Shown here: positions 256 to 19,583 of the stretch, piece by piece
Position numbering within the stretch: position 1 is the stretch's first letter
How the letters are laid out: every line of letters begins with the position of its first letter
IMG/VR virus record: IMGVR_UViG_3300007734_000437
Coordinates: 1-20,423 of that record
Origin: a virus
Direction: 5' to 3' (one strand)
Length of the DNA stretch: 20,423 nt
Made by a program: the position numbers and the translations under genes
The notes under the pieces: generated by a model
The model's database searches: none
What the model saw: the letters and a program-made list of their open reading frames with translations, nothing else
Told to the model about the DNA's origin: nothing

Positions 256-2399
256 GTGCTAGTGGTGGCGGGCATCGGCCCAGGCATCTGCGCTCCGAGG
301 CGTCCAATGACAGCGTTCTGCTGCTGTTGTAGCTGGAACTGGTACTGCTTGGCTCTCGCCTCCAGACGCTCGCGGAACGGCTGATCCTGTTGAAACCTCT
401 GCTGAACATCGGGCTGTTGCAGGTATTGCTGAATGACTTGGAGGCCGATCTGCGGCGGGGTGCCGGGCTTGATGTTCTTCGGGATGCCCGCGAAGATCTG
501 CGCCAGATCCTGCTGCTCGTCCTGCACGATCTGCTGCTGGCCTTGCTGCGCGGGACGGATGATGCGCTCGGCAATGTTCGGGTCGATGGTGGACACGAAC
601 GCGGTGCAGAGAGCGGACCAGTCGATGACGCCTTCGCGGTCGAGGGACTGCGCGGCTTGGATGATCGCCGTCCACTTCTCGCTCATGCGCTTGAAGTCCG
701 GCGACTGCACATCCCACGCGAGATAGAAGTCGAACTCCTCGTTCACGTCGCCCTTGTTGAAGAGCTGGAAGTTCGGGTCTTTGACGCCCATCACGCGGAA
801 CGTGACCTGATCCATGCCGTACTGCTTGTAGAGCTTCCACACTTGGCGGAAGCTCTTGGCGAGGCAGCCGAGGAACTTATCGACCTCAAACTGGTTGTAG
901 ATCGGGTCAATGGCGGGATCGCCTTCGCGACTGGCAAAGCCGTTGTACTCCTTGAACGAAGCCTCAAGCAGTTGCTCGGACTTGTCCGTATTCATGTCCG
1001 GTATCGGACGGTCGGCGTAGTGGTACTCGTTCGGACGCCGCTCCGAGATCATCGCACCTGGACCCCAACGACCCGGCGGACGGCCCTGCGGGTAGCAGAT
1101 GGGCGGAAGGATGCCGAGGGAGGCGGCGTCGATACGGGAATCCTTGTGCGCCTTGATCTGATCCTGCCACGGCTTGCCCGGCTCGGGCAGACCACGGGAA
1201 TCATGGAGCTTGCGGCTCAAGTACTCGCGCCTGTACAAAACAAATGGATACTCACCGTGGGCGTAGCCGAGGAGGCCGGTCTTCGCGCAACCATCGTGGT
1301 TCTGGTCGGGCGGCAGCATTGGGTTGAACACCGTGCAGTAGATGCCAGGCGTGCCGTCCTCATCGGACAACCGCTGGTAGGCGTAGACGACACCGATGCG
1401 ATCCGTGAACCGCTGCTGCGTGTACACGAACGAACGGGAAATCGGCTGCATGTACTCGCTGGGAGACATGCTGATTAGCTTGCCACGCACCTTCTGGATC
1501 GCGGCTTCCACCCATTGCTCATCCCAGCCGTCAGTGTTGACCATCGCCCGCAGTTGCTCGGCGGTGAAGTACTCCACGCGATAGATGCCGGGCGCCCGCT
1601 CCAAATCCGTCGAGAACGACGGGATGAAAACGTGCTCGTCCAAGTTAAACGCACGGACGACGGGATAGGACCGCTCGGGACCGTCCATCGGGACGCTGGT
1701 TTCGCCCTTATCGCGCAGCTCGCGCAGCATACGAGCGGCCTTGTCCTTGGAGGCGCCGTACTGCTCTTGGAAAATCGCCTTCAGGTCATCCGCCGCGCTT
1801 TTGTCCTCAATCAGCGCGGTGATGTCGATGTTCGGGAACTGCTGCTGCAAGTCCTGCACGCGGACGTTGACCAAAACTTTTTCTCGACGTTTCTCCCAGA
1901 ACTGGCCCATGACGGCCACGCCCTTCTCGTTCATGTAGTTGGCGCACATCTCAATCTCGCGCTCAACCTCCGGAATCTGCGTCTGGATCAGCCAGCGCAT
2001 GAAGTTACTGACAAGCTGGCTACGAGCACCGTCCTCCGCGCCCACCGGCACAGCGGTCAGGTTCGCCCGCTTGAACGCCATGCACTCCATGGCGACTTTC
2101 TTGTTGATGATGTTATCGACAAGGAAGACACGGAGGTCGCTGGCGCCATCCCACGGCGTCGGGCTGGTCTTGCTGCCTTCGCGGGAGTGTTTCTTCCCGT
2201 CAGCGGACTGCCCGTTCCAGATCGCGTAGCGCGTCTCGTAGTTCAGCCGGCATTGATCGATGAACGGCTGGTTATCGCGCACGCAGTCCTCAAACGCCTT
2301 CTTGAGAAGGTTGAAATCCGGCCCCTTGTTCTCGGGCGGGGCTAGTTGCAGACCGGGATCAGGGGGAACGGAAGTGGCGTTGCCGTCGATGGAACTCAT
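252..2399 (-). CDS. Portal protein
   Basis: This protein of about 715 residues lies directly after the large terminase gene, the usual place for a portal. Portals form the dodecameric ring at the capsid vertex that the terminase docks on and DNA passes through. The length, the acidic helical N-terminal half and the glutamine-rich C-terminus (QQGQQQIVQDEQQ, then QYQFQLQQQQ) suit the large portals of podovirus-like phages; identification is by overall resemblance, not a catalytic motif. I chose the ATG at 2399 (MSSIDGNATSVPP). An in-frame TTG at 2429 would add ten residues and leave 20 bp after the terminase stop; neither start has a clear Shine-Dalgarno sequence. The end overlaps the next gene as ATGA. 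Long plus-strand frames across this gene are antisense shadows. Confidence 0.82.
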   Translation of the reverse strand: MSSIDGNATSVPPDPGLQLAPPENKGPDFNLLKKAFEDCVRDNQPFIDQCRLNYETRYAIWNGQSADGKKHSREGSKTSPTPWDGASDLRVFLVDNIINKKVAMECMAFKRANLTAVPVGAEDGARSQLVSNFMRWLIQTQIPEVEREIEMCANYMNEKGVAVMGQFWEKRREKVLVNVRVQDLQQQFPNIDITALIEDKSAADDLKAIFQEQYGASKDKAARMLRELRDKGETSVPMDGPERSYPVVRAFNLDEHVFIPSFSTDLERAPGIYRVEYFTAEQLRAMVNTDGWDEQWVEAAIQKVRGKLISMSPSEYMQPISRSFVYTQQRFTDRIGVVYAYQRLSDEDGTPGIYCTVFNPMLPPDQNHDGCAKTGLLGYAHGEYPFVLYRREYLSRKLHDSRGLPEPGKPWQDQIKAHKDSRIDAASLGILPPICYPQGRPPGRWGPGAMISERRPNEYHYADRPIPDMNTDKSEQLLEASFKEYNGFASREGDPAIDPIYNQFEVDKFLGCLAKSFRQVWKLYKQYGMDQVTFRVMGVKDPNFQLFNKGDVNEEFDFYLAWDVQSPDFKRMSEKWTAIIQAAQSLDREGVIDWSALCTAFVSTIDPNIAERIIRPAQQGQQQIVQDEQQDLAQIFAGIPKNIKPGTPPQIGLQVIQQYLQQPDVQQRFQQDQPFRERLEARAKQYQFQLQQQQNAVIGRLGAQMPGPMPATTST

Positions 2400-2449
2400 G
2401 GGCTTGATGAACGCACCTAATGGGCGCAATCACAAAGACGCGCAAGCAA

Positions 2450-4981
2450 TCAATAACTCCAAGTCTTGTCCTGTACCTGTTCGGCGGCGTGCGGGTCCAC
2501 AAACTCGCAGTTTGATACGCAAAGGTAACGCAGACAGTCGATTGGGTCTTTGGTGGCCTCGTCCTTGCCGCCTTTGGCCGTGTACTCCTGCATGGAGTAA
2601 ATCAGGTTCTGGCAGCGGTCGCTGATGTACAGCTTCGGGGCGTTTAACGCCGACAGGGGCCGCTTTTCGTCATAGGACAGCAGCCCGTTGATGAGTTGGA
2701 TGCCGTTTTCAATCTCCACGCCAGGTGCGGGGTGGAAGATCATGCCGGCCTCATCCAACTCGCTTATGATGGTGGTGGCGCCTTCTTGGGACTGCTTTTC
2801 CGCCGCACCGAGACGCGGGTCGATGAACCGCTCGAAGATCGCTTCCCCTTCTTCGCAGTGCTTGATGAGTTCGACGTAATCGACGATGCCTTTCTTGCTG
2901 CCTTTTTGGGCGGGACCGGGCTTTCCTTCGGGTCCGGCTCCGGGCAAGGCCCAATCGTCGTAGTCGGGCCACTCTCGGTAGACCCACCATGTACCGGCGG
3001 CGTCGATGGCGACCCAGAGCATGAACCAGTTTTTTGATCCTGCCGGGTCCAGTGCCATGTAACGTGTGACGTTGTAGTCCACGTTGTTTGTCCACGGCAT
3101 CTTTTCGTGAGGTATGACATTAACGTCCTTATTAAAGCCAGGAAAGACGCTAGTGATGCTTTTGGTGGGTACGCCATATGCACGGGCCAACACTTCGTCC
3201 TTTGGACGCCCTAGCAACTTGTTTCGGAAGTCGGAGGTGTCGATGAAAGCGTTATCCTCGGTCCAGAAATAGTAGATAACAGTGCCCGGTCGGGAAAGGG
3301 ACTCTTGGACGACTGGTAGCTCTCGACCCACCAGCGGGGCAAATCGCTTTTCAATAATACGAGTCTTCCCGAGGATGTCCTGAACCAGAGGTGTCCAGCC
3401 TGTGAGAGTAGTAAACGTGAGGATGATGCGTCCATGGTAGTCGGTCGTGCGGTATTGGAGCGTCTCAAACATCTTCTGCGGACACTCTTCGTCGCACCAG
3501 ATCAAGTGAGCGCGGTAACCTTCGGCTACCTGTGCGTCAGCTTGGTAACTGCGGTAGTTACTAAACTTAATACTGCCACCACGACGGAAACCATTAACAG
3601 GAGGCAGGATACAGATGTTATCAGTAAAACCATTCTTCTGGGAGTACTGGACACTGTGGTTTAAGCCCTTCTTGGTCGGTAGATTGCGGATGCCCTGCGG
3701 GAGAGCATCCCAGACCATGCGCTGCTGGTCTTCGATGCTCCGGTCCTCATTGACGTGGTAGGCACGGACCTCTGCGCCTGGGATCGTACCCGCCGCCCAC
3801 ACGCAAAGACGGCTGGCGATCATGGATTTCGAGGAGTTGTGGTGAATTACCCCTGCTACCTCGTAGTTACCATAGGAGGGAACAGTTATATCCCACTTGA
3901 CTTCTATTCCCGCTGACCTAATACCAGTGACATATGCCACGCCATAATGCGATTGAGTATCCTGTTCAGAAGATTCGCGATTGGATTGCTGAAGGCCAGA
4001 CACAGCAACAGATCGCTTCACACCTTCAGCAAACGCTGGATGGTCGCATAACGCCAAAATTGGTTTACAAGGTTTGCAAGAAGCATGGCATTCAATGCCA
4101 GCGAACAGGTCCACGTGCCGGCGAAGGTCATCCAGAGTGGCAAGGCGGTAGAATCTTTTCCAGACTGGGATACGTGAAAGTATTCTGCCCAGAACACCCA
4201 ACTTGCGTTGCTGTAAATCAAAAGCGAGCTGCGCGAGCCAACGGCGGGTATTTTCGGAAGCAGAAGTACGTATGGGAACACCGCCTCGTAATGGAGAAGC
4301 ATCTAGGCAGATTCCTTCAGCCTCGTGAAGTAGTTCATCACATAAATGGCAATCGCAGCGACAATCGGCTGGAGAACCTGATCGTGTTTGGCTCAAACGC
4401 AGAGCATCTCCGAGTCGATCTTGCTGGCCGTTGTCCAAAATGGAGCGAGGATGGAAGAGCGCGGACCCTAGCCGCAGTTCTTCAACGGAGCGCCAAGTAC
4501 CGTCTGCCAAAAGCACGCGATGCTCAAGAGAAGCGACAAATCGTTGACCGGTTGAAAGCCAAACTTCCCGCATCGCACCAGGAGGCTTTTGAAACGGCTC
4601 TTCAGCCTCTGCTATGATGCGAGTGCCGCCATCCCACGCATAAACGTGGTGCTTGCCTTTGATGCTGTCGATTCGGCGACTGACGTTAAGCACCGGATCG
4701 TACACCAACGTATCGCCACGCAAGCAGCGGTTGCCTCCGAGGATGACGTGGTTGGTGTACTTGCCCCAGTTGCCCATCACCGTCTGCCACGAAGGCAGAA
4801 TCCAACCGGCACCAACGGGATTTTGCAGCGCCTCTTGATTCCGCTGCTCCCGAAACGCGAGGTAGTTCGCCAGCTTGTCGTGCGGCCAGCTCAACAGCTC
4901 ACCATCCGGCGGGTTCTCCACCCACGGGATGCCAAAATCGGGCTTAAAGTCATCGGCAAAGTAAACGTCACCGAGCGGCAT
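2450..4981 (-). CDS. terL: Terminase large subunit interrupted by an intein
   Basis: This is the ATPase-nuclease that drives DNA into the prohead. The precursor is 843 residues; removing the predicted intein (residues 86-382) leaves 546, a normal TerL size. The intein falls inside the Walker A loop, which reads GGNR, then the intein, then SSKS. That rejoins to GGNRSSKS, a deviant P-loop familiar in phage terminases. Further along are a Walker B-like LIWCDEE (493-499), a coupling segment LTFTTLTG (521-528) and nuclease acidic residues at D645 (ALDPAG), D721 (FIDPR) and D812/D815 (KDPIDCLRY). The ATP site is split, so enzyme activity should depend on splicing. The start overlaps the upstream small gene by 14 bp. 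The central intein segment is also the antisense of an HNH gene. Confidence 0.9.
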   Translation of the reverse strand: MPLGDVYFADDFKPDFGIPWVENPPDGELLSWPHDKLANYLAFREQRNQEALQNPVGAGWILPSWQTVMGNWGKYTNHVILGGNRCLRGDTLVYDPVLNVSRRIDSIKGKHHVYAWDGGTRIIAEAEEPFQKPPGAMREVWLSTGQRFVASLEHRVLLADGTWRSVEELRLGSALFHPRSILDNGQQDRLGDALRLSQTRSGSPADCRCDCHLCDELLHEAEGICLDASPLRGGVPIRTSASENTRRWLAQLAFDLQQRKLGVLGRILSRIPVWKRFYRLATLDDLRRHVDLFAGIECHASCKPCKPILALCDHPAFAEGVKRSVAVSGLQQSNRESSEQDTQSHYGVAYVTGIRSAGIEVKWDITVPSYGNYEVAGVIHHNSSKSMIASRLCVWAAGTIPGAEVRAYHVNEDRSIEDQQRMVWDALPQGIRNLPTKKGLNHSVQYSQKNGFTDNICILPPVNGFRRGGSIKFSNYRSYQADAQVAEGYRAHLIWCDEECPQKMFETLQYRTTDYHGRIILTFTTLTGWTPLVQDILGKTRIIEKRFAPLVGRELPVVQESLSRPGTVIYYFWTEDNAFIDTSDFRNKLLGRPKDEVLARAYGVPTKSITSVFPGFNKDVNVIPHEKMPWTNNVDYNVTRYMALDPAGSKNWFMLWVAIDAAGTWWVYREWPDYDDWALPGAGPEGKPGPAQKGSKKGIVDYVELIKHCEEGEAIFERFIDPRLGAAEKQSQEGATTIISELDEAGMIFHPAPGVEIENGIQLINGLLSYDEKRPLSALNAPKLYISDRCQNLIYSMQEYTAKGGKDEATKDPIDCLRYLCVSNCEFVDPHAAEQVQDKTWSY
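3897..3924 (+). promoter_or_regulatory. Possible promoter for the antisense HNH gene
   Basis: TTGACT (3897-3902) is followed after 16 bp by TAATAC (3919-3924), 9 bp before the HNH start codon at 3934. The -35 matches the sigma-70 consensus at 5 of 6 positions; the -10 matches at only 3 of 6. Transcription would begin almost at the ATG, giving a leaderless or nearly leaderless mRNA, which fits the lack of a Shine-Dalgarno sequence. No plus-strand gene upstream in the window could supply read-through, so a local promoter is needed. Weakly supported. Confidence 0.3.
3934..4617 (+). CDS. HNH endonuclease encoded antisense within the terminase intein
   Basis: The 227-residue protein has an HTH-like N-terminus (KIRDWIAEGQTQQQIASHL, 13-31) and an HNH core at about 113-160. 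The key segments are VWEHRLVMEKHLGR, VVHHINGNRSDNRLENL (His135-His136, Asn138, Asn148) and a downstream H158. Phage homing endonucleases of this family cut DNA near intron, intein or intergenic insertion sites. The whole gene lies on the strand opposite the intein, 36 intein codons from its start and 32 from its end. Its C-terminal 45 or so residues are complementary to intein block B. Upstream is a TTGACT/TAATAC pair that would give an almost leaderless transcript. A clear HNH signature makes a chance antisense ORF very unlikely. The homing role is inferred from location. Confidence 0.87.
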   Translation: MPRHNAIEYPVQKIRDWIAEGQTQQQIASHLQQTLDGRITPKLVYKVCKKHGIQCQRTGPRAGEGHPEWQGGRIFSRLGYVKVFCPEHPTCVAVNQKRAARANGGYFRKQKYVWEHRLVMEKHLGRFLQPREVVHHINGNRSDNRLENLIVFGSNAEHLRVDLAGRCPKWSEDGRARTLAAVLQRSAKYRLPKARDAQEKRQIVDRLKAKLPASHQEAFETALQPLL

Positions 4982-5174
4982 GGCGTTTTTTCATGTGGAC
5001 GGTGTAGGTGAGGCGGCTGGATTCGATCTGCGCCCACGGAATCATCCCTTGGCCGTCGATGTTCAGCCCTTCCGGCTCGGCGTAGATGCTCAAACGGGCG
5101 TATTCGCGTGCGCCCTCCACGTCCGGCTCAATCAGCCATTCGTCCACTGCTCGTTTTGTGACCATGACGCACAT
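4968..5174 (-). CDS. Small hypothetical protein upstream of terminase
   Basis: This 68-residue frame (MCVMVTKRAVDEWLIEPDVE...) ends 14 bp inside the start of the terminase gene, so the two are probably co-translated. The protein is mixed charged with the segment EGAREYARLSIYAEPEGLNI and a basic tail, MKKRHAAR. I do not recognise a family. A gene directly before TerL is sometimes the small terminase subunit, but this one is short for that and shows no clear HTH. A second in-frame ATG at 5165 is possible. It is preferred to the plus-strand frame over the same DNA because it lies in the terminase operon and has a plausible amino acid composition. Confidence 0.55.
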   Translation of the reverse strand: MCVMVTKRAVDEWLIEPDVEGAREYARLSIYAEPEGLNIDGQGMIPWAQIESSRLTYTVHMKKRHAAR

Positions 5175-5302
5175 CTGACAGTCATCTTACAGTCAGACAA
5201 TCCGCTTAACGTCTGATTGATGAGGTATTAGGTCGCCTAATAACCGATACAGCAGACGGGTTTGGTATTTCATGCGATGCAACTCTGGTTTTTGTACCTC
5301 TC
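5175..5302. promoter_or_regulatory. Divergent intergenic region with palindrome and repeats
   Basis: This 128-bp gap separates the minus-strand terminase operon from the plus-strand glycosyltransferase operon, so it should hold promoters for both. It contains a near-perfect palindrome at 5226-5242 (TATTAGG, TCG spacer, CCTAATA). It also has two direct copies of ACAGTCA (5178-5184 and 5189-5195), and the inverted pair TCAGAC (5193-5198) / GTCTGA (5211-5216). These resemble operator sites, but no regulator can be assigned and no strong -35/-10 pair is obvious. Confidence 0.45.
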
Positions 5303-6175
5303 ATGGCCCAAAAACGCATCCTCATCGGCACACCACTCAAGGGAGACATCCCGAAGTCCTATTTCCGCACCAGCCTGCAAATGGCTACGGCGGAGATTCC
5401 TGACGTTAAGCTGGATTGGATCTTGTTGGACGGTCCTGCCGTGCAGATTGCCCGCAATGAGATCGCCCATTACGCGGTCGAGCAGAAGTTCGACGAGCTG
5501 ATTTTCTGGGACAAAGACGTGCTGGCGATGCGGAATGGTGAGGACATGACTGCTGCTGCCCTTATGCGGTTGATCGGCCATGACCGTGACATCGTGACGG
5601 CGGTCTATTCGTCGCGTTCGCTGGAAACGCATTGGCACGTCCACCCCATCAAGGGCGAGGAGCCGGATGAGAGCGGATTGCAGCGGGTGGAGCGGGCCAG
5701 CATTGGCTTCTGCAAAATCAAGGTGCCAGTCTTCAAAAAGATCGCTTGGTCGAACATTGACCGGGCGGCAATGCTGGTCGATCCCAACAAGGCACCCAAG
5801 CTGGTGCCGGAGCTGTTCCCAATGGAGCTACGGGGCCGCAACACGCCCCTGTACCGCTTGCAGCAGATCTGGGCCGCGCTGTCGGAGGTAAAGAACGATG
5901 AGGCGCTACGCGCACGCATCGAACGGGAACTGACGATCCGTTACGACGAACCAAACTCCTACATCTCGGAGGACTTTGGCTTCTGCGACCTAGCTAGGGC
6001 GGCGGGCTACGACATCTGGATGGATACGCTCATGGTGCTGGGCCACCAAGCCTCCGTCGTGGTGCCAATCGAAAGCGGCAAGCTCTTGGAGATGTTGTCC
6101 GAGCCGTGGCGCAAAGAAGAACTGGCGATCATCAAGCAGCAGATGCTAGAGGCGCAGGCCGCGAAGAAGAAATGA
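5303..6175 (+). CDS. GT-A-fold glycosyltransferase-like protein
   Basis: The 290-residue protein has the layout of phage nucleotide-sugar transferases: a beta-strand start (KRILIGTPLKGDI), a VQIARNEIAHYAVEQKFDELIFWDKDV stretch in two adjoining pieces (47-73) with the DxD-type metal/nucleotide motif D70-K-D72, then TAVYSSRS. A late SEDFGFCDLARAAGYDIWMD segment is typical of the acceptor-side acid region of this fold. Related phage proteins are thought to modify DNA bases, virion proteins or host surface sugars; the substrate cannot be told here. It starts a chain of small plus-strand genes and overlaps the next one as ATGA. The ATG at 5303 lacks a Shine-Dalgarno sequence. The lysine-rich C-terminus (AQAAKKK) is normal for a soluble protein. 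Confidence 0.72.
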   Translation: MAQKRILIGTPLKGDIPKSYFRTSLQMATAEIPDVKLDWILLDGPAVQIARNEIAHYAVEQKFDELIFWDKDVLAMRNGEDMTAAALMRLIGHDRDIVTAVYSSRSLETHWHVHPIKGEEPDESGLQRVERASIGFCKIKVPVFKKIAWSNIDRAAMLVDPNKAPKLVPELFPMELRGRNTPLYRLQQIWAALSEVKNDEALRARIERELTIRYDEPNSYISEDFGFCDLARAAGYDIWMDTLMVLGHQASVVVPIESGKLLEMLSEPWRKEELAIIKQQMLEAQAAKKK

Positions 6176-10551: not shown

Positions 10552-11724
10552 GTGGCCCAACCAACAACGACACACATGACATGGATACTACCAAGCCAGT
10601 TACACACGTTAGCCTTTGCGCCGGGTACGGCGGCATTGATCTCGGACTCAAGCGAGCAATCCCAAATCTGCGAACAATCGCTGTTAGCGAGATCGAAGCG
10701 TTCGCCTGCGCGAACTTGGTCGCTAAAATGGAAGCGGGATGCCTGGATGCGGCACCTATCTGGACGGATGTTAAGACCTTCCCTTGGGAGGAGTTTCGCG
10801 GCAAAGTGGACATCCTCTCTGGAGGCTACCCTTGCCAGCCCTTCAGCGCCGCAGGGAAACGACTCGGCAAGGACGACCCAAGACATTTGTGGCCTTGGAT
10901 CGCAGACGGAATTCGGGTTTGCCGGCCAGCCGTGTGCTTCTTTGAGAATGTCGAGGGACACATCAGCCTTGGACTCCGAGAGGTCATCGGAGAACTGGAA
11001 GAGATCGGTTACCGAGCAACGTGGGGAGTATTCTCGGCGGCTGAAGTCGGCGCACCTCACCAACGCAAGCGGGTTTTCATCCTGGCCCACAGCAAATGCA
11101 CGGGACTGGAAAGATGGAGATGCTGGATGCAATCAACGAGCGATAGATCAAGGGCATCAGATCACTCTAGGGAGGGCTGCGACTTGTTGGAACAATGGCC
11201 CAGCCGCCCAGGCCGACCCCAGTTCCCGTGGGAGCCGCCGAGGGTGGTTGGAAATCAACCCGCAGGTTTGGGGGACACCCAGAGCGAGCGAACGGGGGGA
11301 CTGCCCATCGGAGCGGGAGAGGCACAACCCGGATTTGAGGGCGCAAGTAGTGTTGGCGCAGGCATGGGCGACACCGAAAGCCAGCGATCCCCAGCACAGC
11401 GGCCCCAATATGCGAGACTCGGCGGGGAATTATGCGCTGCCAGCGCAAGCCGTAAGAGAGTCGTGGGCGACACCGATAGTCGGGGACAGTCATCTAGCAT
11501 CGACACCCGATGTGGCGGCCAAACGATTGTCGGGGGGCAAAGTGACCTTGAGCCGTCAGAACGCTGGCAAACTGAACCCGCGCTGGGTGGAGACGCTCAT
11601 GGGTCTGCCGGTAGGATGGACTATGCCCAGTTGTGCGTCTCCGGTGACAATCGCACCGACGAATTGCGGCTCCTTGGCAACGGAGTCGTCCCAGCAACCG
11701 CAGAACGAGCTTTTCGCACTTTGA
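10552..11724 (+). CDS. Overlapping +1-frame ORF with W(A/P)TPxASD repeats
   Basis: A 390-codon open frame (GTG at 10552, or ATG at 10576) covers almost the whole methyltransferase in another frame. Its translation has features I associate with a family of phage proteins found beside C5-methyltransferases: ENWKRSVTEQRGEYSRRLKS (147-166) and repeated tryptophan units WPTANARD (178), WGTPRASE (240), WATPKASD (272) and WATPIVGD (305). Near the end is LNPRWVETLMGLPVGWT (341-357). Because the whole set occurs in order, this may be a real product made by overlapping translation. Alternatively, these proteins may be common out-of-frame annotations of the methyltransferase itself, since each WxTP unit is the same DNA as a GDTxS unit. 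I consider both possible. Confidence 0.45.
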   Translation: MAQPTTTHMTWILPSQLHTLAFAPGTAALISDSSEQSQICEQSLLARSKRSPARTWSLKWKRDAWMRHLSGRMLRPSLGRSFAAKWTSSLEATLASPSAPQGNDSARTTQDICGLGSQTEFGFAGQPCASLRMSRDTSALDSERSSENWKRSVTEQRGEYSRRLKSAHLTNASGFSSWPTANARDWKDGDAGCNQRAIDQGHQITLGRAATCWNNGPAAQADPSSRGSRRGWLEINPQVWGTPRASERGDCPSERERHNPDLRAQVVLAQAWATPKASDPQHSGPNMRDSAGNYALPAQAVRESWATPIVGDSHLASTPDVAAKRLSGGKVTLSRQNAGKLNPRWVETLMGLPVGWTMPSCASPVTIAPTNCGSLATESSQQPQNELFAL

Positions 11725-11744
11725 TCGCCCGGTTTTTCCCATGA
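10581..11744 (+). CDS. C5-cytosine DNA methyltransferase
   Basis: This 387-residue enzyme transfers a methyl group from S-adenosylmethionine to cytosine C5 in DNA, in phages often to evade host restriction. Motif I is SLCAGYGGIDLGL (11-23). Motif IV is GGYPCQPFS (81-89) with catalytic Cys85. Motif VI is ENV (122-124). Motif VIII is around QRKRVFILA (161-169). Motif X is LRLLGNGVVPATAERAF (363-379). The region between VIII and X, where target recognition sits, has three GDTxS units (231, 263, 297) and WPSRPGRPQFPWEPPRVVG. The start has no Shine-Dalgarno sequence; the leader is A/C-rich. Its stop overlaps the next start (ATGA). A second long frame runs the full length of this gene. Confidence 0.92.
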   Translation: MDTTKPVTHVSLCAGYGGIDLGLKRAIPNLRTIAVSEIEAFACANLVAKMEAGCLDAAPIWTDVKTFPWEEFRGKVDILSGGYPCQPFSAAGKRLGKDDPRHLWPWIADGIRVCRPAVCFFENVEGHISLGLREVIGELEEIGYRATWGVFSAAEVGAPHQRKRVFILAHSKCTGLERWRCWMQSTSDRSRASDHSREGCDLLEQWPSRPGRPQFPWEPPRVVGNQPAGLGDTQSERTGGLPIGAGEAQPGFEGASSVGAGMGDTESQRSPAQRPQYARLGGELCAASASRKRVVGDTDSRGQSSSIDTRCGGQTIVGGQSDLEPSERWQTEPALGGDAHGSAGRMDYAQLCVSGDNRTDELRLLGNGVVPATAERAFRTLIARFFP

Positions 11745-13993: not shown

Positions 13994-14572
13994 TCAATCT
14001 TGTGCCAGACTGCGACGAAAGCTGCGGATCGCTTGGCTGACCGCGCCTTGAGTGATGCCGTACATCTTCGCTAATTCCGTTTGAGTCATGCCAGCTTCCA
14101 GCAACTTGAAGACTTTCGGCATTTCAGAGTCCGACAACACGCAACACGGACGGCTCTGGATAACATCTCTTTTGGTCGCCCAATAGCAGTTGCTCGGCGT
14201 GTAATGCTTTTTCCAGTTTATGCGGTTGATGCAGTGCTTCGGCGTCGGACGCGGCCCCATGTCAGCCAAAAAGTTTTCAAACGAATCCTCCCAACGCTTG
14301 CAGACTTTGATGCCTTTTGCACCAACGCCACCATAACCCCTTTGCTTGGGATTTGAGCACCGCTGTTTCATCGCCCGCCAACTATGCACGGCCCCGCCAT
14401 GAAGTGCGTTGTTTTTGATTACCTCTTCGCGGTGCTCACGGTACCACTGCCTGTATGCTTCTCGCTGTTTCAACAAATCGTCGTGACTGCCCCAACATTC
14501 CTCGCCCTTCACATATTTTAGGAAAACTTGTCCGTTAGGCGCGATGTCACCCGGCTTATGTTGTTGTGTCAT
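13994..14572 (-). CDS. HNH-type homing endonuclease with C-terminal HTH
   Basis: The 192-residue protein carries the element seen in a common family of phage free-standing endonucleases: SWRAMKQRCSNPKQRGYGGV (64-83), GIKVCKRWEDSFENFLADMG (87-106), PRPTPKHCINRIN and YTPSNCYWATKRDVIQ (124-139). In typical members this reads LDRIDNxGxYxPxNCRWAT, so the catalytic Asp/His position here is altered (CINRINWKKHYTPSNCYWAT), which may affect activity. A C-terminal HTH (GMTQTELAKMYGITQGAVSQ, 161-180) probably sets target choice. The start overlaps the upstream stop (ATGA), with AAGAAAGG directly before it. It sits between virion-type genes, a usual place for free-standing homing genes. Confidence 0.78.
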   Translation of the reverse strand: MTQQHKPGDIAPNGQVFLKYVKGEECWGSHDDLLKQREAYRQWYREHREEVIKNNALHGGAVHSWRAMKQRCSNPKQRGYGGVGAKGIKVCKRWEDSFENFLADMGPRPTPKHCINRINWKKHYTPSNCYWATKRDVIQSRPCCVLSDSEMPKVFKLLEAGMTQTELAKMYGITQGAVSQAIRSFRRSLAQD

Positions 14573-16846: not shown

Positions 16847-17336
16847 GCGAAATCAAATCATTGCACCAAAGTGCCTTGCGCCCCGAGAACAATAAGTTCC
16901 ACAAAGGCAACGGGGACGACGGCAAACACTACTGGCTTACGCCGCCAGACCTAATGCGCAATTTGCAGCAGGAGTTTGCCTTCAATTTTGATCCGTGTCC
17001 GTTCCCAAAGCCTGCTGATTTTGACGGCCTTACTTGTGAGTGGGGTCAATCCAGTTATGTGAACCCTCCCTTTGGTTCAATTATGCACCAAGGTAAAAAG
17101 AAGGGGCCAACCGCTTGGGCGAGGAAAGCGATTACAGAGAACCGGAAAGGTAAGCGCGTAGTACTTGTGTATCCCATCGACAAGTGGATTCTTATGCTTC
17201 TCGGCGCTGGGGCAAAGGTGCGGAACCTAGGCGATGTTCGTTGGCACGCGGTTGAGGACGGATCGCAGGGCAAAGGTACAGGGAGACATATTGCCGCTTT
17301 CATTCTTGAAGCACGTAAGGAGGCGCAGCCATGAGC
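16829..17336 (+). repeat. 20-bp direct repeats flanking the adenine methyltransferase gene
   Basis: AAGGAGGCGCAGCCGTGAGC (16829-16848) and AAGGAGGCGCAGCCATGAGC (17317-17336) differ at one base, the first base of the start codon. Each copy holds the end of one gene (KEAQP), a Shine-Dalgarno sequence and the overlapping start of the next gene. The feature span covers both copies and the methyltransferase between them. Confidence 0.8.
16843..17334 (+). CDS. Phage N6-adenine DNA methyltransferase (Dam-like)
   Basis: The 163-residue protein matches the phage DNA N-6-adenine-methyltransferase family: YWLTPPDLMRNLQQEFAFNF (30-49), FDPCPFPKP (49-57), DGLTCEWG and the catalytic SYVNPPFG (71-78, NPPF as the DPPY-type motif). 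KRVVLVYPIDKW follows. It methylates adenine N6 in DNA, protecting phage DNA or marking it. The GTG start at 16843 overlaps the previous stop and has AAGGAGG upstream. Flanking 20-bp repeats suggest the gene is a recombination module. Length is normal for the family. Confidence 0.86.
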   Translation: MSEIKSLHQSALRPENNKFHKGNGDDGKHYWLTPPDLMRNLQQEFAFNFDPCPFPKPADFDGLTCEWGQSSYVNPPFGSIMHQGKKKGPTAWARKAITENRKGKRVVLVYPIDKWILMLLGAGAKVRNLGDVRWHAVEDGSQGKGTGRHIAAFILEARKEAQP

Positions 17337-17738
17337 AAGTCCCAACAGCAACTTTCGATAGTCGTTGATGCGGAAGACTCCGATCTGCTTGCAATCAAGA
17401 TTGGACCATCAAGCGGTTATGCCAGAACGACGATTCGTCCGCAAAAATACATTCATTGCATCATTGCCCAGCGAATGGGCCTATCGTGGAACAGGCGAAC
17501 TGAAGTTATTGACCACATCAACCGCGACAAACTGGACAATCGCAGGCAGAATTTGAGGGTAGCGTCCAAATCGCAGAATCTTGTGAACAGTCAAAAATGC
17601 GATCAGGCGAAAGGTTACTACAAAGCTGGAAATCTATGGATCGTTCGCGTTAAGCGAAACGGCGTAATTCATCGGAAGTCATTTAACAACGAAACCGACG
17701 CCAAGTTTTGGGCCGACGTTTTGAAGGGTATGAAATGA
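17331..17738 (+). CDS. HNH endonuclease with C-terminal AP2-like domain
   Basis: The 135-residue protein has the HNH element VIDHINRDKLDNRRQNLRVA (59-78) followed by SKSQNLVNSQK. A compact AP2-like DNA-binding domain comes next (GYYKAGNLWIVRVKRNGVIH, 95-114, then KSFNNETDAKFWADVL). This HNH-AP2 architecture is typical of free-standing phage homing endonucleases. Its start overlaps the methyltransferase stop (ATGA, with AAGGAGG) and its stop overlaps the nuclease start (ATGA), so it is perfectly fitted into the operon. The N-terminal part (SIVVDAEDSDLLAIKIGPSS) matches the usual strand set of the family. Confidence 0.87.
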   Translation: MSKSQQQLSIVVDAEDSDLLAIKIGPSSGYARTTIRPQKYIHCIIAQRMGLSWNRRTEVIDHINRDKLDNRRQNLRVASKSQNLVNSQKCDQAKGYYKAGNLWIVRVKRNGVIHRKSFNNETDAKFWADVLKGMK

Positions 17739-18547
17739 AAACAAGTTTTCACTGGTACGACCGCGACGGCAACGCGGTCTTTGAGGTCCCGAAGGCCAAG
17801 GGTGGCGGGATGCGTGCGACTACCATCGCAGACGCCCGCAAGCTGAACCTGTACCCAAGCGTGACCACGGTTCTCTCCGTCCTAGCCAAGCCCAGCTTGG
17901 ATGACTGGAAGCTCCAGCAGGTGGCAGAGCGGGCTTACTCCAACCCGCCGCAGGACGGCGAGGAGGCGTCAGCTTACTCCCGCCGCATCATTGACGGTGC
18001 GTTTGAGCAAGTAGGTGAGGCTGCGGATCTCGGCACCCGCATCCATGCCGGAATTGAACTAGCGTTCAAGGAGGGCATCAGCTCGGTGCCAGAGGATGTC
18101 TACGATTACGTCAAATTGGTGAAGCAGGATCTGGAGTTTGCCGGCATCAAGCTCGTCCAGCATGAACTTCGTTTGGTGAACGACTTTGTTGGCTACGCTG
18201 GCACGACGGACGCCATCATGGTCAAAGATGGCAAGCAGGGCATCTTGGACTTCAAGTCGCGCAAGACCAAGCCCGGCGTCAAGATTGAGCCGTGGGAGAC
18301 CGAGCCCATGCAAATTGCCGCCTACTACGCAGCGAAGTGGGGCGACATCCGTCCCAGCGCCATCGGGGCCAACGTCTACATCTCCACGACGGAACCTGGT
18401 CGCGTTCAGATCGTGACCTACGACGACCTGCAACTGGAGAAGGCTTGGGAGGCGTTTAAGGCCGCCAACCATCTCTGGCAGTACCTCAAGAACTACCGAC
18501 CCAAAAGAAAAACCCCTGCCGGGGACACACAGCCCGCAGGGGTGTAA
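17735..18547 (+). CDS. PD-(D/E)XK (RecB/Cas4-like) nuclease
   Basis: From the coupled ATG at 17735 the protein is 270 residues. It shows a RecB-family exonuclease pattern: YPSVTTVLSVLAKPSLDDWK (40-59), LGTRIHAGIELAF with H104 (99-111), GTTDAI with D159, and GILDFKSRKTK with D172 and K174 (169-179). MQIAAYYAAKWG (192-203) supplies the motif Q193/Y197. The enzyme likely cuts or resects DNA in phage recombination or replication. A hairpin lies across its stop codon. An earlier start at 17708 would overlap the HNH gene and is unlikely. Confidence 0.84.
   Translation: MKTSFHWYDRDGNAVFEVPKAKGGGMRATTIADARKLNLYPSVTTVLSVLAKPSLDDWKLQQVAERAYSNPPQDGEEASAYSRRIIDGAFEQVGEAADLGTRIHAGIELAFKEGISSVPEDVYDYVKLVKQDLEFAGIKLVQHELRLVNDFVGYAGTTDAIMVKDGKQGILDFKSRKTKPGVKIEPWETEPMQIAAYYAAKWGDIRPSAIGANVYISTTEPGRVQIVTYDDLQLEKAWEAFKAANHLWQYLKNYRPKRKTPAGDTQPAGV
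18512..18543. terminator. Hairpin across the nuclease stop, possible terminator
   Basis: ACCCCTGC (18512-18519) pairs with GCAGGGGT (18536-18543) around a 16-base loop. On the plus strand no T-run follows. On the minus strand the hairpin is followed by TTTTCTTTT, so it would stop transcription coming from the right. It may also act as a weak plus-strand terminator or an mRNA stabiliser between two gene sets. Confidence 0.45.
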
Positions 18548-18563
18548 CACACACAGCGTCCCT

Positions 18564-19265
18564 TTGTTAGTCCAACCAACCAGTAAGTCCAACCAAAACA
18601 ACCATGCCCATAAACATATCAGCCAGTCAAACAAGTCCAAGTCCGAGCCGGTTCCCGCTGGAACTCATCATGCCATCTGCTATGGCGTTGTTTACCTTGG
18701 CACGTTGCCCAGTCAGCAGTACAAACCACAGGAGAAGATCATCCTTGTTTTTGAGATGCCTCACGAACGCATCACGATCAAAGACAAGGATTTGCCGCGT
18801 GGAATCAGTAAGCGGTACACGTTTTCGTTCAACGAAAAGGCAAGCCTTCGCAAAGACCTGCAGTCTTGGCGGGGTCGCCCGTTCACGTCTGCCGAGCTTG
18901 CCGGCTTTGACGTGTCCAAACTGATCGGTGCCAACTGCCTCTTGTCCGTGCTCCATCAGGACCGCGCAGGGGCAACCTACGCCAACATCAGCAGCATCTC
19001 CGCGCTGCCCAAGTCGATGAAGTCCGTGGCACCCGAGAATCCGTCGCTGTACTTCAACGTGGTCGAGGCCATCGCATCCGCCAAGAGTAAGGGACTGCGC
19101 GACATCATTTGGCCGGAAGACCTGCCGACGTGGATTGAGAAGCTCTGCTGTGAGTCCGAGGAGTACAAGACGTTCGTCATGGGCAGCCCCAATGCCGAGC
19201 CGCCGGATGCTCCCGCCGAGGAGGATCTGCAACCCGCCGAGGACGACCAGAGCATCCCGTTTTAA
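18564..19265 (+). CDS. Putative ssDNA-binding/recombination phage protein (start uncertain)
   Basis: The body EPVPAGTHHAICYGVVYLGT, KYTFSF-like ISKRYTFSFNEKASLRKDLQ, SWRGRPFTSAELAGFDVSKL and YANISSISALPKS belongs to a phage family I associate with replication/recombination blocks and possibly ssDNA binding. The acidic tail ending DDQSIPF resembles that of ssDNA-binding proteins. Only a TTG (18564) is available as an in-frame start, giving 233 residues with a polar, N/Q/H/K-rich lead. The natural-looking ATG with an A/C leader is at 18604, but it is in another frame (MPINISASQTS...). A frameshift or sequencing error in about the first 50 bp is likely. Confidence 0.68.
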   Translation: MLVQPTSKSNQNNHAHKHISQSNKSKSEPVPAGTHHAICYGVVYLGTLPSQQYKPQEKIILVFEMPHERITIKDKDLPRGISKRYTFSFNEKASLRKDLQSWRGRPFTSAELAGFDVSKLIGANCLLSVLHQDRAGATYANISSISALPKSMKSVAPENPSLYFNVVEAIASAKSKGLRDIIWPEDLPTWIEKLCCESEEYKTFVMGSPNAEPPDAPAEEDLQPAEDDQSIPF

Positions 19266-19280
19266 GCTAATACACTGAAC

Positions 19281-19583
19281 ATGACACACACCACAGGTCA
19301 GGAACTGAAAGACGCAGGCTGCGCCCAAGTCCTGGAGCACACTCCAGAGGCTTGGGTCGCAGACTTTGAGCAGCAGGCTGCTGCACTATTGAAGACCAAC
19401 GGTTCGTTCACGGCGGAAGAGGTCGTGACGCTGATCGGCCAACCGCCCAACCACAGCAACGCCATCGGGGCGGCTTGCCGGCAATTTGTGAAGCGTAACG
19501 GGCTAACTGGCAGTTACGAGCCAGCTCGTTCCCCTTCCGCCCATGGCCGCATCATAACCCGCTGGAGCATGACGACCTTCTAA
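19281..19583 (+). CDS. Small hypothetical protein with winged-helix-like C-terminus
   Basis: The 100-residue protein begins MTHTTGQELKDAGCAQVLEH. Its second half, FTAEEVVTLIGQPPNHSNAI then GAACRQFVKRNGLTGSYEPA and SAHGRIITRW, resembles a phage family in which a winged-helix-like domain follows a helix. Its function is unknown; it may bind DNA near the replication genes. The leader is CACTGAAC with no Shine-Dalgarno sequence. Confidence 0.7.
   Translation: MTHTTGQELKDAGCAQVLEHTPEAWVADFEQQAAALLKTNGSFTAEEVVTLIGQPPNHSNAIGAACRQFVKRNGLTGSYEPARSPSAHGRIITRWSMTTF

Follow-up and report, generated by a model that had tools for sequence, protein, structure and literature searches.

How an intein in a phage terminase can share its DNA with an endonuclease gene on the opposite strand, and whether the two together form a mobile element, is the question raised by the locus described here. 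It lies in viral DNA, positions 1 to 20,423 of the IMG/VR record IMGVR_UViG_3300007734_000437, and this whole stretch of 20,423 nt is referred to below as the window. A preliminary description of the locus, which treated it as a single odd case, was followed up by computational analysis.

The terminase intein and the gene on its opposite strand

The features of the locus are the following, with coordinates in the window.

2450 to 4981, minus strand: open reading frame of the large terminase (TerL) with its intein, a precursor of 843 aa with about 80 TerL relatives
3836 to 4726, minus strand: intein of 297 aa (TerL residues 86-382), running from C1 to His-His-Asn (HHN) and followed by Ser+1
4445 to 4726, minus strand: intein residues 1-94, the N-terminal splicing part, with C1 and block B H69; pLDDT mostly >90
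3950 to 4444, minus strand: intein middle, residues 95-259, the reverse-strand reading of the HNH gene; pLDDT ~30, predicted disordered
3836 to 3949, minus strand: intein residues 260-297, the C-terminal splicing part, with block F D279 and H296-N297; pLDDT ~85-95
3934 to 4617, plus strand: HNH homing endonuclease gene of 227 aa, antisense and wholly inside the intein; Pfam HNH_3 3.4e-11, PHROG HNH 3e-22
3961 to 4086, plus strand: helix-turn-helix-like region near the N terminus of the HNH protein (about residues 10-51); three predicted helices, weak helix-turn-helix matches
4279 to 4410, plus strand: core of the HNH nuclease, residues 116-159, whose His/Asn positions are invariant or almost so in the alignment
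4445 to 4614, plus strand: C-terminal tail of the HNH protein, residues 171-227, opposite splicing-domain residues 38-94; both frames constrained

The TerL reading frame matched Terminase_6N and PHROG terminase families, both weakly, and the insert splits its Walker A motif (GGNR/SSKS, the slash marking the insertion point here and below). The residues C1, H69, D279, H296 and N297, which are the catalytic ones, and also Y288 were invariant in an alignment of 26 intein sequences, and the +1 residue was Ser, Thr or Cys among the junctions listed. A profile of the 26 intein relatives matched solved inteins, including the DnaB and RecA inteins, with E-values down to 7.5e-18, and the ordered part of the predicted structure resembled the Mtu RecA intein (Z 21.5, 1.6 Å over 137 residues). 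As judged from these alignments and the structural model, the insert in TerL is an intein with a predicted HINT fold. Since Intein_splicing was the sole Pfam family matched (in 25 of the 26 relatives), no sense-strand endonuclease was found in the intein: the endonuclease domain that defines a canonical homing intein is missing from its frame, and the middle is predicted to be disordered. A group I intron carrying an antisense endonuclease gene was also considered for this locus and was ruled out, as positions 2300-5400 gave no Rfam match at E-values up to 1.

The identification of the antisense product as an HNH nuclease rests on sequence families, because fold matches to solved structures were weak; an example is the match of the model to I-HmuI (1u3e; Z 6.2, rmsd 4.5, 82 residues), and the N-terminal helix-turn-helix-like part matched DNA-binding-domain structures at Z 5-6. 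Neither a clear Shine-Dalgarno site nor a scored promoter was detected before the ATG of the window's HNH gene, and a leaderless mRNA is possible; a strong ribosome-binding site precedes the HNH gene in only some members (e.g., L063 and L066). A TTGAC-N17-xAT element upstream of the ATG, which recurs in close relatives, was rejected as a promoter since the conserved intein residues coded there explain it.

The preliminary description is thus confirmed in its account of the TerL intein with its splicing blocks, of the absence of a sense-strand endonuclease, and of a complete 227-residue HNH gene lying antisense wholly within the intein DNA. The concern it had raised, that the gene might be an assembly artefact, was removed for this contig, because the same intein/HNH unit was present, at 98-99% identity, in two other IMG/VR contigs, L001 and L002.

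Elsewhere in the window, two more HNH endonuclease-like genes were observed at 13994-14572 (minus strand), with a C-terminal helix-turn-helix, and at 17331-17738 (plus strand). A C5-cytosine methyltransferase gene (10581-11744) and an open reading frame for 390 aa (10552-11724, PHROG 1008) lie on the same strand in different frames and overlap by more than 1.1 kb.

Recurrence and coding on both strands

The layout is not restricted to the window. Relatives of the HNH protein in IMG/VR, checked for an opposite-strand open reading frame, provided a first set of 48 distinct nested antisense elements, and all 53 further HNH loci examined after a profile search were of the same kind. In a census over all loci, 106 distinct HNH cores were nested, stop-free, in one and the same antisense register; seven cores, not individually inspected, had an opposite-strand reading frame in another register, and eleven loci, most of them not individually inspected and several of them free-standing controls, had none. 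The locus therefore belongs to a widespread class and is not the single case that had been supposed. Most of the antisense-HNH elements found sit in terL, and their hosts comprise several terminase families and a clamp-loader-like ATPase. The insertion sites include GGNR/SSKS, GGNR/SGKT, GGRG/SGKS, GAAG/TGKS, a second Walker A site (GK/T) and the clamp-loader-like GPSG/CGKT; in L066, L278, L279, L281 and L282 the intein interrupts the P-loop of clamp-loader-like ATPases. Three cultured phages have the layout: Pectobacterium phage Ymer, Dickeya phage Setonix and Pseudoalteromonas phage PHS3 (KX912252; intein at 18455-19354), in which the HNH gene was annotated as a gene of its own and TerL as a mere fragment. 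In bacterial genomes, a first scan with the window's group gave no match, and a second scan gave one nested copy (L288, an Opitutae MAG) and six free-standing homologs.

The open reading of the intein DNA in both directions, also noted in the preliminary description, was evaluated by shuffling synonymous codons of the window's HNH gene. On average this procedure put 8 stops into the intein frame, where 0 were observed, and for 25 representatives it predicted 5-11 stops where none were seen; the intein frame opposite the window's HNH gene is open more than expected by chance. Among nested HNH genes the intein register is free of stops and the other antisense registers have several, whereas free-standing HNH homologs have 2-17 stops in the equivalent register; the six bacterial free-standing homologs have stops there as well. 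One element, L062, carries a sense-frame stop in an otherwise intact antisense-HNH intein, which counts against the explanation favored below. Phe followed by Ile, Met, Thr, Asn or Lys occurred 0 times in nested HNH proteins against 68 expected, and 11 times in free HNH proteins against 10.9 expected, but this avoidance follows from the open frame and was not accepted as an independent test.

In the shared register, the wobble positions of the intein face codon position 2 of the HNH gene. Between pairs of relatives, HNH-changing substitutions across HNH residues 1-170 occurred at 0.04-0.11 per opportunity and intein-changing ones at 0.41-0.56, so that the former were about 5-11 times rarer; opposite the splicing domain the two rates were about equal, both around 0.2, and the intein outside the HNH overlap is under purifying selection. 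By these substitution patterns, the first 170 residues of the HNH protein are under selection, and the intein frame opposite them seems to be under little constraint except freedom from stops. Another antisense register could avoid stops equally well, and the fact that one register is nevertheless shared suggests one origin; the antisense layout probably arose once and then spread as a unit.

Mobility and competing explanations

At the insertion site, the TerL relatives either lack any extra DNA or carry exactly 891 bp, about 74 of 80 loci being empty and 5 filled. The loci L221 and L175 have TerL proteins that are 95% identical, HNH proteins that are 54% identical and splicing domains that are 41% identical, as would be expected if the same host had gained unrelated elements independently. 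The reverse relationship was found between the window and L012, distant hosts with a similar element (HNH 61% identical, TerL only 29%). L056 and L197 appeared to have identical HNH proteins (identity 1.00), a match that was set aside as unreliable.

A census by the splicing domain alone covered 34 loci, of which 21 had a full antisense HNH gene, two had HNH remnants (L265 and L280), nine were mini-inteins of about 127-142 residues without HNH, and two had, in frame, the kind of middle region that is typical of sense endonucleases. Because some copies are HNH remnants or mini-inteins without HNH, the splicing and homing parts are separable, and comparison of these copies shows that the intein middle is dispensable for retention of the splicing domain. 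Read as a series of related sequences, the census is the cycle of gain, decay and loss expected of homing elements. A terminase with two inteins was also noted (L259, L260): a mini-intein sits in Walker A, and the intein downstream of it has a large middle region in frame.

Sequence comparison thus shows exact insertion, two coding frames, repeated gains and a loss series, and we infer protein splicing, cutting of empty sites and expression of the HNH gene on its own from the opposite strand. The locus is very probably a mobile intein with a homing endonuclease gene encoded antisense inside it. It is also likely, with somewhat less confidence, that such elements constitute a class of mobile inteins not described before, with double coding kept mostly by selection on the endonuclease and avoidance of sense-frame stops, so that the endonuclease can be expressed independently of the host protein.

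Three other explanations were weighed. The HNH gene might be inactive cargo in an intein that is no longer mobile; inactive endonucleases are common in inteins, and HNH remnants do occur, but strong purifying selection acts on the HNH core in the window's group, its key positions do not vary, and hosts that are close relatives bear elements acquired independently, which makes this explanation unlikely. Still less probable is that the HNH protein serves as a helper in DNA packaging and merely happens to be located inside the intein. HNH proteins encoded near terminase genes can take part in packaging (PMC11855218), and those beside the terminase genes of HK97-like phages may be such helpers; the role would also suit the predominance of terL among the hosts; however, the great majority of close TerL relatives do without the element, the same element occupies clamp-loader-like ATPases, and related inteins survive the loss of HNH. 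G+C-rich DNA can yield long antisense reading frames by chance. That only one frame is real, the other being a spurious antisense HNH reading frame or an accidentally open intein frame, is already contradicted by the matches of both proteins to curated families and of the intein to solved inteins, by the selection seen on both proteins and by the stop-free register of all 106 copies.

For the mobile intein with its antisense endonuclease gene, the following course of events is proposed. Translation of the sense strand would yield TerL with the HINT-fold intein, which would excise itself and join the exteins, and the HNH gene would be transcribed and translated on its own from the opposite strand. 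The HNH enzyme would then cut terL copies that lack the intein, in their Walker A region, and repair would copy in the 891-bp element; cutting and copying-in are suggested by the exact empty and filled sites and the repeated gains. The protein middle of the intein would be a by-product: the HNH protein would be the target of selection, and all that the intein frame would need in this part is to stay clear of stops. Some copies would shed the HNH part to become mini-inteins. It is reasonable to suppose that the splicing and homing proteins may be made at different times from opposite strands.

One DNA stretch would then code for two different proteins on its two strands, in about a hundred distinct copies across phage families, which offers a natural system for the study of overlapping genes and makes the cycle of intein gain and loss visible. 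The layout can account for mis-annotated terminases, such as that of PHS3, and for some unusual intein linkers that are disordered; it also suggests reading both strands when inteins or endonucleases are searched for.

Comparison with known systems

Inteins have been described with the homing enzyme in the same frame, so that one protein provides both splicing and homing. Split inteins in fractured genes, with the endonuclease encoded separately, were reportedly described by Dassa and colleagues in 2009. They resemble the window in that the endonuclease is a gene of its own within the intein DNA, but those inteins are split and their endonuclease gene lies in the sense direction, whereas the intein of the window is continuous. 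In the literature searched, no published description of an antisense endonuclease gene in an intein was found, in agreement with the earlier remark that no intein of this layout is known to have been described; a preprint on non-canonical actinobacteriophage inteins (10.1101/2025.01.02.630785) was not covered.

Among canonical homing inteins are the TerL inteins of mycobacteriophages (PMC5050341), and the intein of cyanophage CL131 carries HNH_3 (PMC6293099). The window shares with canonical homing inteins the HINT splicing domain, a site in a conserved terminase ATPase motif, precise empty sites and an endonuclease partner; their endonuclease is a domain in the intein frame, whereas that of the window has its own gene, encoded by the opposite strand. 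In the ShiLan-type insertion, an HNH gene occupies the same strand in another frame of an insert in a phage methylase, and its authors found no splicing domain (PMC11855218). Both systems hide an HNH gene of the same broad family in an open-framed host gene and are mobile in phages, but the HNH gene of the window is antisense and inside a real intein, which places it outside the ShiLan type. The Didymium group I introns Dsq.L2066 and Dir.S956-2 (PMC9548176) are also self-splicing elements that harbor a homing endonuclease gene in antisense orientation. These introns splice as RNA in rRNA genes, where the sense strand need not stay open, whereas in the window both strands are protein-coding.
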